The notes beneath the pieces were generated by a model. The model did no database searches and had not been told where the DNA came from. It saw only the letters and a program-made list of their open reading frames with translations. Shown here in pieces: positions 38,097 through 45,245 of a DNA stretch of 64,000 nucleotides (within the stretch, counting starts at the first letter, position 1; every line of letters begins with the position of its first letter). Source of the stretch: Mortierella sp. BCC40632. Taxonomy: Eukaryota; Mortierellomycota; Mortierellomycetes; Mortierellales; Mortierellaceae. The DNA lies in NCBI GenBank assembly GCA_011634665.1, contig WAEK01000004.1, forward strand, positions 2,237,501 to 2,301,500. The letters run 5' to 3'. The position numbers and the translations under genes are program-made.

Positions 38097-38124
38097 CTAC
38101 AGTCCGGCGTCAAAAGGTGTACAA
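38097..38124 (+). repeat. Left terminal inverted repeat with embedded palindrome (38106-38146)
   Basis: CTACAGT at the outer edge and TGTACAA at the inner edge match the right-end copy in inverted orientation. The overlapping palindrome (arms GTCAAAAG-TGTACAA with one mismatch, AAA in the centre) could be a hairpin or a dimeric protein site. Confidence 0.65.
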
Positions 38125-38271
38125 AAATTGTACAGCTTTTGACACCCTCTCCAACAAACTGATTGGCTACGAAATTAAGCTAACTTCGTGACGCCACTTT
38201 TAATACAAAATACAGCTTGCTCTAGCTCCATCTAGGAGACACTCGTCTTCTTATTCACACTGTCCGTCACC

Positions 38272-41200
38272 ATGGGTTTGACCGATATTTCACAGATGCT
38301 GCGGGAATTAGATTGCAGAGGTACTCCTACAGACCCAAGAGACCATTGTGAGGTGCATGTGGACCTGCTGTCCTGTTACTTTGGATTTATTCGGGCTTGC
38401 GACTTCAGGATTACCCGCAAGCTTTTAAAGGAGAACCACTCTCTGGACACTTTGCAAGCGTTACGGATCGAATGGTTGGCTGCTGCTCTCGACTCGAAGC
38501 TTTCCAAAGCATTCAATAAAAGCGCAATCCTACATATCGACGGCAACCCTACAAAGGAAAAGGAACATGCAAGATCCCTACGCTCAGCGATCTACAAGCA
38601 GCAGAACGACCGCCTGGAAACGCAAATTGACGATCTCAACAGGCGCTGCTCACAAATCCTGAATTCTGCGCCAGACAAGCTCATAAAATCACACATGAAA
38701 AGTCTCCGCAAGAGCTTCCGCAAGATGTTACATGCGTGGCAAAGATCTTTTCGCATCGACGACGATATGCGGCGTCGACTGGGTGCAAAGCTTGCAGCAA
38801 ATGGGTGGCAGCTATGTGAGCGGGATCCTACGTCCGGGATCTGTGTTGGCGAGGCAGACCTTTGCTGCGCCCAACTCGCCGCCCAGAAGAACGGTGAAGG
38901 CCGCGGTCCCATTGTAGTAGCCTCAGGAGACTCAGATTTCCTCGCACATGACAACATAACTTTACTTCGCCAGAATGCCAGACGCCGAACCGAGTATCGC
39001 CAATTTACTCGGCACTATGTGATCGCGACGCTCAACATGAATAGGCCACGGTTAAGACGCTGCACCAAAAGGAACCAGCATCGTGAGGAAGAACTCCCTC
39101 TCCTTAACCCGGACATCTGGAAGGTGCTAGCAACGGTGTGTCAAAACGACTATTCAACTAACGTCAAGGGCTACGGCCCAAAGAAGAACTGGGCGATTCT
39201 TGGTCAGCTTTGGGACCGAGAAGGGGTAGACACACCTCAGGAATTGCTAGCAGAATACGAGAAAGATATGGCAAAGAGAAAGTACAAAGGTGACCCGGTC
39301 GTTGTCCCAGACTTTTCTTCATCCGCACGGGTGTTTTTTGACCGCACGGAAACCTTGCTACCACCTTCCTCCTCACCACCCAATGCTATCCCTCATCATG
39401 ATGTGATTCCTCAGGTGATGGCACTCTATGGGCGTGCGATGACCATGCTAAAAAAAGAGTTTTGTAAAGGTCCACCCCATACACTACAGTCGGATCTCAA
39501 GAAAGCCAAGTATACGCGACACTTTCGAACAAGTAACAGCCAGTTCAAACCCCGTTTGATTAAGTTGCCACAATGGAATGAACCACCGCCAAGACCGCCA
39601 TCGAAAGTTCCCACCCCCCCTACAGAGCGAAAACCTCAAAAACAATCTCAACAGGTTAGTGTGCATCCGAATTGATCAGCACGCATACAACTTGCGCAGC
39701 TATGATACTTATCATCGCTTTGATACCATCAGGAGCGCGTTAAGGCTAGCATCAACAAAGAGTCTGCCCTTCCTGACAAAGGAAAAAAGAGAAAAGCAGA
39801 GGTATGACAGTAGATATTGGTAGCGCTTGCCGTGACCATCAACCACACGTGTTTCTCATTCTCTCTCTCTCTCTCTTTTTTTTTTTTTTTTGTTGATAGG
39901 AGCCAGAGCAGGGCAGTCCCTCAAGTAAACCCAAGACAAAACGATCAAAACCTAAAGTCGACAAGACGAGCCGCGCATCAAGGGAGACAAATTGCCGACA
40001 GGAGAGGATCGCCCAGGCAGCCGCTGAAGGGACGGATCTTAAGATCCAAGAACGCTGCCGCAATCTTGGATCAATTATCAACGACGAGTTGAAATCCCTC
40101 TGCGAGACGGTAACTCTCTCCAAAGGTGACACCCGTCATCTACTGACGACCCACATGGCGGTGAATCTAAGACCTTCGGTGGAGGCATACGTCGCAGCCG
40201 GTCACGCATTGGACTTCAAGCAATCGCCTGATGATGACCAGTCTACACTTTGTGACCATGTCATATCCGCCCTGAAAGAGGATATCGAGGACACTCTCAC
40301 CCAAATTTCACGACTTTACACGGATCTCAGACGGATTTGCATTTATGCTACCGAGTATTACATCTCCAAGATTATGGCCGAGCATTCCGACATCGGACAC
40401 CGTGAACAACGGATGCGTGCCTTCCAGGCCGTGTTGAAGGGCCAAGATTTTTTTCCGGGCACTAGCCGTTGCTCTGTACAGTCCTAGCCGAATGAGAGAT
40501 GTACGAGTCAAAGAGGATTCAGCGCTGGCAAGACAGATTGCAGTCACATTTGAACTGGATTTTGGTGCTGCCGCACAGAAAGTTCTCGAGAGAGTTCGCA
40601 AGCTGCTGGATGGCACTGTCCATATGCACGTTATCGAGGAGATCGCCCGTAATACTAGTGACGGGATTCGAACTCAGGCGCAACACTTTATCACGACCTT
40701 AAAGTCACGGGTAAGTTGTTTCTTTTTGACAGAGCGGTGTAGCTTATCAACTTGCCTGTATCTAACCGTCTTCAACCTTTTCTAGGTGATTGAACAAGCT
40801 CCCCGAATGGGCCAACACCACCGGAAAGCCGATGCTGGATGCAATTGACAAAAATGGTCAAAGCAAGCGAGACGACTTTTTGTCCACCAATTGGTTTCTG
40901 AACTCCGTTCTTCCAGAGGACTGTCGAATTGCCCTGTACCCCCGATCATCCTGGAGCAACGCCTTTGTCTGTCTCAGTGAGGCAAACATAATCCACTCAC
41001 TCAAGCGCAGAAGACTGACGCCGGAAAAAAAAGCATTGATCCCGGTGTATAATCACCTTTTTGGCAAAGGCACAGCGTATGCTGAGCACCGTGGCCAGCT
41101 GATCTACGACCTCTTCTTTGGAGGCACAAAGACGAATTACGACCGGACCACAGCGGTGGCACATCCACTCCACTCTGACCGAACACCAGCAGTCTTGGAC

Positions 41201-42612
41201 TTGAGTGAGCCGAGCCTCAGCACTGTAGCACACAAGGTTTGTCATGGTGTAGACCGAGCTGAACAACGGCTTGCGACAGCCGAGTTCAAGAATGCCATTA
41301 AGCAGGACATCGTGTCGCGTGGTGAGGAGCCCCATCACAGCAAAGGACGTCGTCTCAAGTACATACTAGAAGGGACTCTCCAAACGAATGGCCAACAGGT
41401 CAAAGTGCAGGCGGCTCATTTGTGGCATAGGTGGCCCAGGAAGAAAGTGGCCGACACTGGCAACTCATCTTCAGTGTCCTCAACGACCTCTACACTCTCC
41501 ACGCTCACCTCCGAGGGCCAAACAAAAGACTGGAGACCAGAACACCGACAATCGCACATCGATTACATTCAACAGTGTCTCCCTGACCAGGCCGCCGTGC
41601 AATGTCTATTTCCCGGCCAGTCAGAATTCATTGTTACGGCCGTTGATCCAGGAGCTAAAAAGTCAGCATGCTCAGCAACGATTGACACACTCGACCCGGA
41701 TCATGTCTCGATCGTCGATGTCCCAAGGGCAAACCTATCGTTCGCTGAGGAGCTCTACAGGAAAAGGCTGGAGTATGCGAAGCAGAACGCCATCTACGAT
41801 GGCAAGGACATTCACACAATTGAGTGTGAGCTGGTAAAATTCACACTACCGCCTCCACAGGCTTCGCCTCTTGAATCTTTTCATCAAGTCTTTGCAGAGG
41901 CGAAGACGAACATGACGACTCATATTGAGCGTGAGCTCAAAGCAGACCCGGTCCTTAGCGATTTTTATGGGTCACCTCGGTTGCGTTTCTGGCGATACCA
42001 GAAGGAGCAAGGCAGACGGGCGGACACTGGTCGAGCTATAGCCAGCCTTCTCAAGAATGCCCAAAAAAAATCTCTGGTCAAAGCTCAAGACAAAGAGGAG
42101 AGGCGGGCACTCTTAGCCATTGGTGATGGTAAATTTGGGAGTTTGCCGGGTATTCATGATAAGTCGGGAGGCTTTCGTTATCAACTTATCCAAGAGGTGA
42201 GAAAGCTTTTTCAGCTGTCGAGACAAAAATATGAAGTGGATGTTCATAACAAACTGTCGTTAACCCACTGGGGAATAGGCCAAAGGGGAGGGCAATGGTA
42301 GTGGTTTTGGTCAACGAATTTAGGTCCTCTATAACTTGTAGCCGTTGTCGTGGACCTACCAAGGCCTTCGGCAGGAATCTCATCTGCTTGAGCCCAACGT
42401 GTGGTGGGGCACGTACAGAAGAGCAGAGCGCGATCGCTGGTCTGAGTTCCACCACTGGTCCCATGTGCGACAGAGATCACAATGCGGCACTGAACTTGGC
42501 GCGAGCAAGCCTGCAACAAATCCAGGAACACTCTTGGCCAGTTGAGCTGCAGCGGGTCAGGGCAATAAGTCTGGAGAATGACGGTGCCATTTTGGCAAGT
42601 GCCGACGTATAG
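38272..42612 (+). CDS. XPG/FEN1-like nuclease fused to a Fanzor (TnpB-like RNA-guided) nuclease; one frame lesion
   Basis: Inferred exons: 38272-39654, 39733-39801, 39900-40710, 40786 (or 40799)-42196, 42286-42612, with phase-0 introns; about 1,330 residues. Residues 1-300 are XPG/FEN1-like with the expected acids: D31 (VHVDLL), D90 (LHIDGNP), E194 and D196 (GEADLCC), D220 and D222 (SGDSDF), D293 (QNDY before a helix-turn-helix GYGPKKN). A Lys/Pro-rich linker follows. The C-terminal half is Fanzor: RuvC-I D in AVDPGAKKS (codon 41645), IGDGKFGS, RuvC-II E in VNEFRSSITCSRC (codon 42316), a Cys4 finger (CSRC and CLSPTC) and RuvC-III D in DRDHNAALNL (codon 42475). The start has context CACCATGG. 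One extra T in a T7 run (40448-40454) breaks the frame; removing it makes exon 3 exactly 270 codons. The fourth exon is in frame if the AAG acceptor at 40798 is used, otherwise an extra C at 40801-40804 is implied. Whether both halves are one protein needs RNA data. Confidence 0.75.
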
Positions 42613-42783
42613 GCGTTGGCGCAAAATTTACGGTGTAAGTGCCTCAATTAGTTTGTTCGTCAGTCAATCAAACTACTGACTATTCTAACCCTCTTTTTTG
42701 CTTAACTTCCAACCAACCACAATGCTAGGATGAAGTGTCAAAAGGAGTACAACTTTTGTACAACTTCTGACACTGTACTGTAG
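42613..42783 (+). ncRNA. Candidate guide (omega) RNA scaffold region at the Fanzor 3' end
   Basis: In studied Fanzor and TnpB systems the guide RNA scaffold overlaps the 3' end of the element and the guide continues into flanking DNA. Here the stop codon is followed by 121 bp and then a 41-nt near-palindrome at the right end. The assignment is by position and hairpin only; no expression evidence is available. Confidence 0.25.
42756..42783 (-). repeat. Right terminal inverted repeat with embedded palindrome (42734-42774)
   Basis: Inverted match to the left end. It lies 144 bp past the Fanzor stop codon. The palindrome has 19-nt arms with three mismatches around a 3-nt centre. A pure T run of about 30 bases follows near 42804. 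Confidence 0.65.
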
Positions 42784-43201: not shown

Positions 43202-43712
43202 ATGGGAATCCCTGGCTTATAGAGAGCTATCGAGGCCTCTCACAAACTTCCTGATTGTCCTTTACCCGATGAGACCAGAATCCTAGTGGATCTCTTTAGT
43301 GCTTACTTTTGAGGCATTAAAAGATTTCCTCAATCATCCTCATGAGAGGCAAGCTGCAGCCCTCGATTAGTTCCTCTCAATACGCCTACCCAAGATGTAG
43401 AACATCGAGATTTTCGTTGACGGCGGACCTAGCGATTAGGGCCGGCATGGCGAACTTCAGAGATCGAGTCATCTTATCTGACGACTCTGATTTTCCTGCT
43501 CACCACAGCATCAAAGTCATTTTCTCCCTGAGCGATACCAAAACTTCAGGAGATACGATATTAACGATTGTGCCAAGGCACTAGGGCTCACCAGAAACCT
43601 ATTAACATCATTGGCAATTGCTTTGACCAACGACAACGTTCCTACACTAGGAACAAAGTCGAACCCTGACACCATTTGCGAGCTCTGTCAAAGTAAGTAC
43701 TTTCTATACAAT

Positions 43713-43747
<35 letters not shown>

Positions 43748-45245
43748 GCATAGTCAATGGTATTTACTAATAGTGCTGTTTCTTTCTTCCTTTCCCTCTC
43801 TTTTTCTTAAGAAAATCGACACAGTGCTTCGGATGTTGGCAATCTGACCAACGCCATCGAGGAAGCAAGAACCAAAAATACAATCAGCCTCCACCGATTG
43901 ACGCTCCTACCTTTGACCAAGCAACTATTTGTGTAATCAAAGTTCAAGCGGCAACAAGAACTTCAGTGTTGATCGGTCATGTGCAAATAATGGATATCGA
44001 TGCATCTACCTCCTAGTCCTCTTTACCGTATGCGTCAATGAAAACGCCGTTAAAGCATGTTCCGCTGTACACTATCCGCATTCACAGTCATGAGAGCGAG
44101 AAGGAATATGAGAAGCCGCCAACCCTCAAGTGCACTCAATGGAACTCATGAAGGAGCCAACGGCAACCACACTAAAGACCACCCCACTCACATTGAAACG
44201 GGAACCTACGAACCAGAAAAAAGAAACCAAGAAAAGTAAGACGACAAACCGGTCATCAAAATCATTCTCCGGGTCCAACAAGTGCACTCTTGTCAAGAGG
44301 ATGGCTTGGGAGCATCGCATGTCAATCCTGACTGCTGGAACTCTGAGAACACATATTAGGCGTGTTGCATTGTCCATCCATTTACAGAAGGGGGGTTATG
44401 TCTATTGTATCGAACTGTGTCAACGACGCAAACTCAGTCATGCGTGAGACCCAGCTGGCTCTCGCTCTTTTCATTCCGTCGAGCGCGCTGCCTGAGCTGG
44501 AGTCCTTAAAAACAATCCTACACAAGGCAGTGGACGACGTGGAAAAAGGCCGAATATGATGACAAGAACACGGATGAAGACACGCCATCCGTGGGGAGTC
44601 CCCATCAGGCCCTGATCAGAAAGATCCTAAGCCCTTTTTACAAAGTCCTCACGGAAATTCTAATGAGAAAACAAGAGAGGCAGACAAAAAGAGAAAAGGT
44701 GAAACTGCAAACTGCATCTTCGCTTCAGTTTCCAAAACAGTGTCTGTGGAGTACCAGCACTTATGCCTGTATCAAGGCGCCCAAGCTGCCACTTTCACCC
44801 ATTGCCAACGGGTTATCTCTATGTCTGAGCGAGAACTGTTCTATTTGCTTTGTGAGAACAGTGAGGCAATGGGCGAGTACTTGGGGAGACTGATACTTGA
44901 GCATTTTCTAGAAACTGAACAGATGTCAATCGTGCCGACCTTGGATACGATCCCTCCTGGTTGGCTGATCAATCAAGTCATCTCACTTGTTGGAAACGCC
45001 ACCCCATCATGCCCAGAAGGGTTTGTAAAAATCAACACGGTCACCATGAAAGACGAAGTGGCTGTTATCCTGCGTGGAATGGCTAACAGGCAGTGTTTCT
45101 TATCGGACGGAACGTGCTCAGATTTCATATCGTTTAGCCGTATTAGATCTCTGCTTAACGAAACGAGCTATCGATGTTGTAGATACATATCACAACGCTT
45201 TCTGTCTAGCAAAACAACAGGAACCTAAAACTGACAGCAAAGGAG
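43202..45245 (+). pseudogene. Decayed relative of the XPG/FEN1-like nuclease
   Basis: Begins with the classic XPG start MGIPGL, followed at once by a stop (43220-43222). In the same frame ILVDLFSAYF places an aspartate at codon 30 (43289-43291), matching D31 of the neighbour. Shifted frames then give EIFVDGGPS (near 43404-43430) and VILSDDSDFPAHHSIK (near 43462-43520), matching the neighbour's LHIDGNP and SGDSDFLAH, and SLAIALTNDN near 43600. An intron-like gap with a T run of about 40 bases (43707-43746) follows. Downstream frames to about 45245 (SERELFYLLCENSEAMGEYLGRL and others) are interrupted and have no recognised domain. No RuvC or Cys4 motif was found. The order and spacing of motifs support homology; the gene is clearly non-functional. 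Confidence 0.6.

Follow-up and report, generated by a model that had tools for sequence, protein, structure and literature searches.

A transposon-borne pairing of an XPG/FEN1-type nuclease module with a Fanzor nuclease in Mortierella, probably encoded as one protein

In a 64,000-nucleotide stretch of the genome of Mortierella sp. BCC40632 (contig WAEK01000004.1, positions 2,237,501 to 2,301,500; hereafter the window), we found a transposon element that carries an XPG/FEN1-type nuclease module upstream of a Fanzor nuclease. The same order of the two halves recurs in diverged lineages of the genome, purifying selection acts on both halves, as measured by ratios of non-synonymous to synonymous substitution rates (dN/dS), and the genomic sequence makes it very probable that they form a single XPG–Fanzor polypeptide. 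Our favoured explanation, to which we give a chance just short of even, is that a transposon-cargo gene encodes one spliced two-nuclease protein, whose XPG half would process RNA-guided breaks and so promote homing.

Results

The gene is modelled as five exons on the plus strand of the window, as follows.

38272–39654, plus strand: exon 1, XPG/FEN1-type nuclease module of 461 residues, supported by its acidic residues, profiles and dN/dS
39655–39732, plus strand: intron 1, 78 nt, GTTAGT..TCAG; frame kept in 3 of 3 testable sibling copies, the fourth not being testable by anchor
39733–39801, plus strand: exon 2, short basic linker exon without a Met, drawn from splice sites and frame
39802–39899, plus strand: intron 2, of a length that varies among copies
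39900–40710, plus strand: exon 3, coding for the linker and for the N-terminal portion of the Fanzor; frame break inside 40438–40487 in the window copy
40711–40785, plus strand: intron 3, GTAAGT..CTAG, supported by splice sites and sibling alignment
40786–42195, plus strand: exon 4, Fanzor core, including the RuvC-I motif AVDPG (its D at 41645–41647); frame disturbed near its start in the window copy
42196–42279, plus strand: intron 4; acceptor backed by sibling copies, an acceptor at 42285 fitting the window copy only
42280–42612, plus strand: exon 5, RuvC-II (NEF), C4 finger and RuvC-III (RD); stop at 42610–42612; PF07282 match at E 1.2e-5

The original prediction described a five-exon gene with phase-0 introns, which holds in part: both of its domains stand. 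The inverted repeats, the sibling copies and the decayed second pair described below come in addition to it. The window copy as an intact gene was rejected, because its frame is broken relative to its three siblings: the alignment places frame differences in exon 3 and close to where exons 4 and 5 begin, and the change in exon 3, across which Fanzor profile matches run in two pieces (39900–40484 and 40438–40782), is absent from the other three copies. In the siblings, the fitting acceptors end near 40785 and 42279, so the edges first drawn for exons 4 and 5 are probably displaced. Every one of the four window-family copies has at least one frame-changing indel, and part of this damage may be homopolymer assembly error. 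We refer below to the lineages W (window), A (seven copies, 95–98% identical to copy L033), B (nine copies), C and D.

The upstream half is a strongly diverged member of the XPG/FEN1 nucleases, with a predicted flap, gap or 5' exonuclease activity. As claimed at the outset, exon 1 carries D31, D90, E194, D196, D220, D222 and D293; across ten aligned XPG halves, D196, D220 and D222 are present in every row and D31, E194 and D293 in at least 90%. The profile of these ten halves bore out the assignment when compared with PDB, where the best matches were RAD2 (E 6.9e-6) and FEN1 (E 1.4e-5), and the first 31 of 36 matches were RAD2/XPG, FEN1, EXO1 or DNA polymerase I, the other five being SarA and a ribosomal protein. 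An 8-row profile without clade D reached a best PDB E of only 0.053, with 17 of 18 matches from the RAD2/XPG/FEN1-type family, and single-sequence PDB searches gave nothing useful. An archaeal FEN model was matched in 2 of the 10 XPG rows (E 1.3e-5). The PF00867 cut-off is reached at two Fanzor-paired places when their neighbours are included (C2:1635213 and C11:1398892), and window exon 1 alone stays just under a Pfam curated cut-off (XPG_I_2, 20.1 vs 24.2 bits). Database relatives of exon 1 comprise four matches from three fungi, namely Lunasporangiospora selenospora (two matches, best 87%), Podila humilis and Actinomortierella wolfii, all of the Mortierellaceae; the XPG profile confirmed none of 13 pattern matches as viral relatives.

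The downstream half is a Fanzor/TnpB-type nuclease by its motifs and profiles, for which a guide RNA and RNA-guided cutting are predicted. The RuvC acids reported earlier are present in the downstream exons (the D of AVDPG, the E of NEF at 42316–42318 and RD at 42472–42477), together with the C4 finger. The Fanzor motif D-X(125-275)-[TS][TS]xxCxxC...RD, in a script that covered the first Cys pair, was found in 5 of 5 rows, with 140–202 residues from D to TS and RD following; the second Cys pair is visible in W, C and the annotated relatives P0005 and P0006, and clade A shows one of its two cysteines. A profile of five Fanzor halves agreed with the original assignment, as it gave 21 PDB matches (best E 3.1e-7; S. 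punctatus Fanzor at E 0.038), 20 of them named TnpB, OrfB, TranC, Cas12/Cas14, designed RNA-guided nuclease or Fanzor; the remaining match is called simply Transposase. The TNB stretch of the window scored 25.8 bits vs a cut-off of 26.3 as a single exon, and 26.9 in a genome search that included neighbours. Viral relatives were not found with the Fanzor profile either (26 pattern matches, 0 confirmed).

Genome-wide, an XPG-like entry lies upstream of 38 of 68 PF07282 matches, on the same strand and within 6.5 kb, where simple arithmetic (59 entries, 49.9 Mb) would predict about 0.3. Copies of one element are not independent, and the 68 matches have E up to 1 and are not all over the cut-off. 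Chance adjacency was rejected on these counts. The distance is 2.6–3.6 kb in 35 of the pairs, 4.2–4.5 kb in two, which share an XPG entry already counted, and 0.4 kb in one. Of the remaining PF07282 matches, one has its entry only downstream (same strand), two have one only on the other strand, and 27 have none. At the one inspected among these 30, C12:1330336, a small search with the XPG profile located, 2.7 kb upstream, a piece that scores 33.5 bits (E 6.4e-11). The 59 entries are matches to three XPG proteins, merged by hand, with the copy on contig C24 in two pieces; short tail-only matches (about 22–35 residues), a few weak ones and one exon 1 tail match (C2:2903859) were omitted. No downstream PF07282 match follows 22 of the 59, and six of these 22 have other Fanzor exons nearby. 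Four further places over the PF00867 cut-off resemble host genes by score and have no PF07282 match near.

The same order recurs in lineages only 25–30% alike, so the pairing does not just reflect copies of one element. The identity of the XPG half to W is 30% in A, 28% in B, 27% in C, 25% in D and 30% in the locus L048. Between A and B, DNA identity is 70–71% in exon 1 and 67–71% in most Fanzor stretches (75–76% in single short ones), with no DNA match over the first intron and linker. Two subgroups of B share 88.7–88.8% of exon 1 and 88.7–88.9% of exon 4, with 86–88% in between. Between the B subgroups, exons 1 and 4 have thus diverged equally; with the similar figures for A and B, this indicates that both halves have long shared one history.

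Purifying selection acts on both halves. For A versus B, dN/dS is 0.15 in the XPG exon (213 codons, p 8e-24) and 0.125, 0.156, 0.15 and 0.185 in four Fanzor segments, as compared to 0.46 in exon 3 ahead of its conserved stretch and 0.31 in the linker past the shared Met. Among the four window-family copies, for which pairs were summed and are not independent, the values are 0.36 for exon 1, 0.19 for exon 4 and 0.10 for exon 5, and 0.87, from few differences, for the downstream part of exon 3.

The fusion in one gene that was originally proposed is the reading favoured by where start codons lie, by constraint on the linker and by the splice joints, although annotated relatives are single-half. 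Of 21 copies entered in a test of the joint between XPG exon and linker, 15 were testable and 11 have the joint in frame (W 3 of 3, A 5 of 6, B 1 of 4, C 2 of 2), while the length of intron 1 ranges over 117–138 nt in A and is 103 and 111 nt in C, with differences not divisible by three. Over the 51 codons of the linker that precede the first Met common to A and B, dN/dS is 0.37 (p 0.007; L039, L042) and 0.57 (L044); the shifted frames of the L039 linker pair give 1.32 and 0.90 and contain 2 and 6 codons with a stop. Window exon 3 has its first in-frame Met at residue 86, within the part alignable to A, the window introns hold two ATGs that both run into stops, and exon 3 of B (L040) has no Met ahead of ANMYS. 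In L044 and L039, even the unspliced sequence has an open frame running from XPG into the linker. The partial protein P0001 stops where exon 1 meets the donor. An NRFRP motif lies upstream of the Fanzor in clade C, reads QFRP in D and recurs close to the N-terminus of P0006, a protein from Umbelopsis.

Several observations weigh against a single two-nuclease protein. The splice sites were picked on reference copies seen in frame, so that only their retention in siblings is a test, and in B three of the four testable joints are out of frame and 5 of 9 copies are without the donor looked for. The B linker has further, unshared Mets upstream of the shared one, and in the window family the linker varies freely, with 26 non-synonymous against 0 synonymous differences (sum over six pairs). 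A two-row query of fused length found no fused protein among database relatives (E 1e-3, 7990 candidates scored); annotated relatives are single-half, with four matches to the XPG half and three to the Fanzor half (7994 scored), most of the models found being partial. AlphaFold models that would bear on a PIN-like fold of the XPG half are too poor to use, with a predicted local distance difference test score of 38.3 with no alignment and 40.7 with a 5-row alignment. No Fanzor was detected near 16 of the 59 XPG places, and the one-gene model was built solely from genomic sequence.

It is worth describing the Fanzor-half relatives separately. P0006 (Umbelopsis ramanniana, 791 residues) is a clade C-type Fanzor from another phylum whose annotated start falls inside the linker; upstream of it there may be an XPG exon. 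P0007 (Mortierella alpina, 1296 residues) has a short Fanzor tail and a long, repetitive, coiled-coil-looking region, and may be a gene-model artefact. A Pfam scan of P0006 and P0007 found no XPG match in either; the third match, P0005, is partial.

The element around the gene spans 4.7 kb and has 49-nt inverted repeats with TA at both ends, the arms being 84% complementary.

38097–38145, no strand: left terminal inverted repeat; TA at 38098–38099, element starting with CAG at 38100
42735–42783, no strand: right terminal inverted repeat, palindromic; TA at 42781–42782

The left repeat holds a near-perfect palindrome (38107–38145), and none of 100 shuffles of the window reproduced the inverted-repeat pattern. 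A pattern search of the 49.9-Mb genome found a close variant of the end pattern eight times, corresponding to both ends of four copies. These four full elements, on contigs C4 (the window), C24, C9 and C20, are 98–99% identical in DNA, with 97 substituted sites across the element and an identical left boundary. Inspection of the open frames showed no transposase in the element, where the profile check consisted of Pfam on the five exon frames. The element is therefore at most non-autonomous, and its insertion at new TA sites would need a transposase supplied elsewhere, probably in trans. It has the terminal inverted repeats and TA at both ends of a Tc1/mariner-type element and shows no DDE transposase. 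The RNA of the window-element 3' end folds somewhat better than shuffled sequence (z -2.24; 7 of 200 shuffles equally good), and an Rfam search returned nothing convincing, its single match (E 0.62) being far under its cut-off.

Other lineages have other ends. A elements (L033 1661–6709, oriented) have a 15-nt inverted repeat, TATCCCTTAAACCGT, and short palindromes at their ends; B right ends (e.g., L039 near 6420, oriented) carry the same A-type repeat and B left ends differ. No repeat was found at the ends of clade C elements. Beside two B copies (L039 6422–7605 and L042 6473–7653, oriented) are frames that, judged by eye, resemble a Mutator-like element (MULE)-type transposase with a SWIM-like CxC...CxH motif.

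The window contains a second pair, directly downstream of the element and outside it.

43202–45225, plus strand: decayed, clade C-like XPG and Fanzor pair, with the XPG profile at 43491–43844 (E 1.1e-5) and the Fanzor profile at 44578–45225 (E 3.3e-29)

The genome is very rich in Fanzor genes, given its 68 PF07282 matches in about 50 Mb. At L048 (2286–4224, oriented), XPG-like and linker-like frames occur with no Fanzor detected, and at L049 (2–1964, oriented) a Fanzor-like frame of a different type precedes the clade C pair, and that stretch shows no XPG.

Discussion

TnpB and Fanzor proteins cut where a guide transcribed from the element end directs them, and TnpB aids the persistence of its element by cutting empty sites. 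XPG-family enzymes are structure-specific, and those of the FEN1/EXO1 type remove 5' strands or flaps. Tethering an end-processor to a guided cutter could bias repair toward copying the element. In the protein we propose, an N-terminal XPG/FEN1-type nuclease would be followed by a basic linker and the Fanzor RNA-guided RuvC nuclease. With a guide RNA supplied by the element's 3' end, the Fanzor half would cut chromosomes without the element at that site; the XPG half, held at the break, would trim or resect 5' strands or flaps, and repair of the processed break would copy the element back. Provided that the polypeptide is single, we lean slightly toward homing through such break processing, a proposed mechanism. 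The broader proposal, that an old and widespread Fanzor lineage of early-diverging fungi is natively two-nuclease, with the guided half breaking, the XPG/FEN1 half processing the ends and the element steering its own repair for homing, is possible and we offer it tentatively.

An XPG-like nuclease and a Fanzor could also be neighbouring genes of the same elements, making separate proteins that perhaps cooperate. This would suit the single-half state of all annotated relatives found and the three out-of-frame B joints; without splicing of intron 1, moreover, a stop codon comes soon after the exon 1 donor, and the linkers of A, B and C contain candidate Mets. However, constraint acts on the linker ahead of the Met that A and B share, and exon 3 of the window and of B is without an early Met. 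Of the 11 W, A and C copies that could be tested, 10 keep the phase of the joint even as intron length varies in A and C, and in the Umbelopsis relative the reading continues upstream past the position of the clade C Met. Separate genes are, in our judgement, improbable.

Alternatively, a single protein might use its XPG half for transposition or RNA processing, cutting palindromic ends or maturing the guide RNA instead of acting on guided breaks. The palindromic window-family ends, the short palindromes of A-type ends, the folding of the window-element 3' end and the structure specificity generally known for XPG-family enzymes are consistent with such a role, which we nevertheless consider rather unlikely, as the ends differ among lineages and no repeat was found at clade C ends, so that no common end structure is shown. 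A further explanation, which concerns the window copies and not the family, is that they are dead relics from which the two-nuclease protein is no longer made. The frame damage in all four copies would fit this, whereas their 98–99% identity, the low dN/dS of exons 1, 4 and 5 (0.10–0.36), the long open frames in both halves of A copies and the possible assembly origin of homopolymer indels make it quite implausible.

There is no agreed role for Fanzors in the biology of eukaryotic transposons. That their pairing here with a 5'-nuclease type is under selection and has been inherited repeatedly suggests that the element depends on how guided breaks are processed, and the pairing permits a direct test, in which one half at a time is inactivated. 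If our explanation is true, the protein would be a natural linked guided cutter and end-processing nuclease, relevant to genome engineering, and a natural counterpart of engineered nuclease–exonuclease fusions.

Comparison with known systems

As far as the literature could be searched, the pairing is best read as an apparently new Fanzor variant. In the open-access literature, which is only partly searchable, no paper joined Fanzor with XPG or Fanzor with Mortierella; by title, none of the matches listed for Fanzor and flap concerned such a pairing, and the terms sought are absent from the main text of PMC11423790.

Fanzor1 proteins in eukaryotic DNA transposons, in the portions available of the two descriptions, have the D...[TS][TS]xxCxxC...RD motif and a variable N-terminal half, and occur in elements that include ones with Tc1/mariner-type ends (Bao and Jurka 2013, PMC3627910; Saito et al. 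2023, PMC10432273). The window protein resembles them in the motif, in being transposon cargo, including with Tc1/mariner-type ends, and in its variable N-terminal half, and differs from Fanzor1 as described there in that an XPG/FEN1-type module precedes the Fanzor. The same portions of PMC3627910 describe viral Mariner elements that carry Fanzor1 and a GIY-YIG or restriction-type endonuclease; there, too, a second nuclease accompanies a Fanzor in one element, but as a separate protein of another family. Compared with the XPG/FEN1/EXO1/RAD2 nucleases, which the window module resembles in profile match and conserved acids, it is transposon-borne, strongly diverged and joined, in the model favoured here, to an RNA-guided nuclease.

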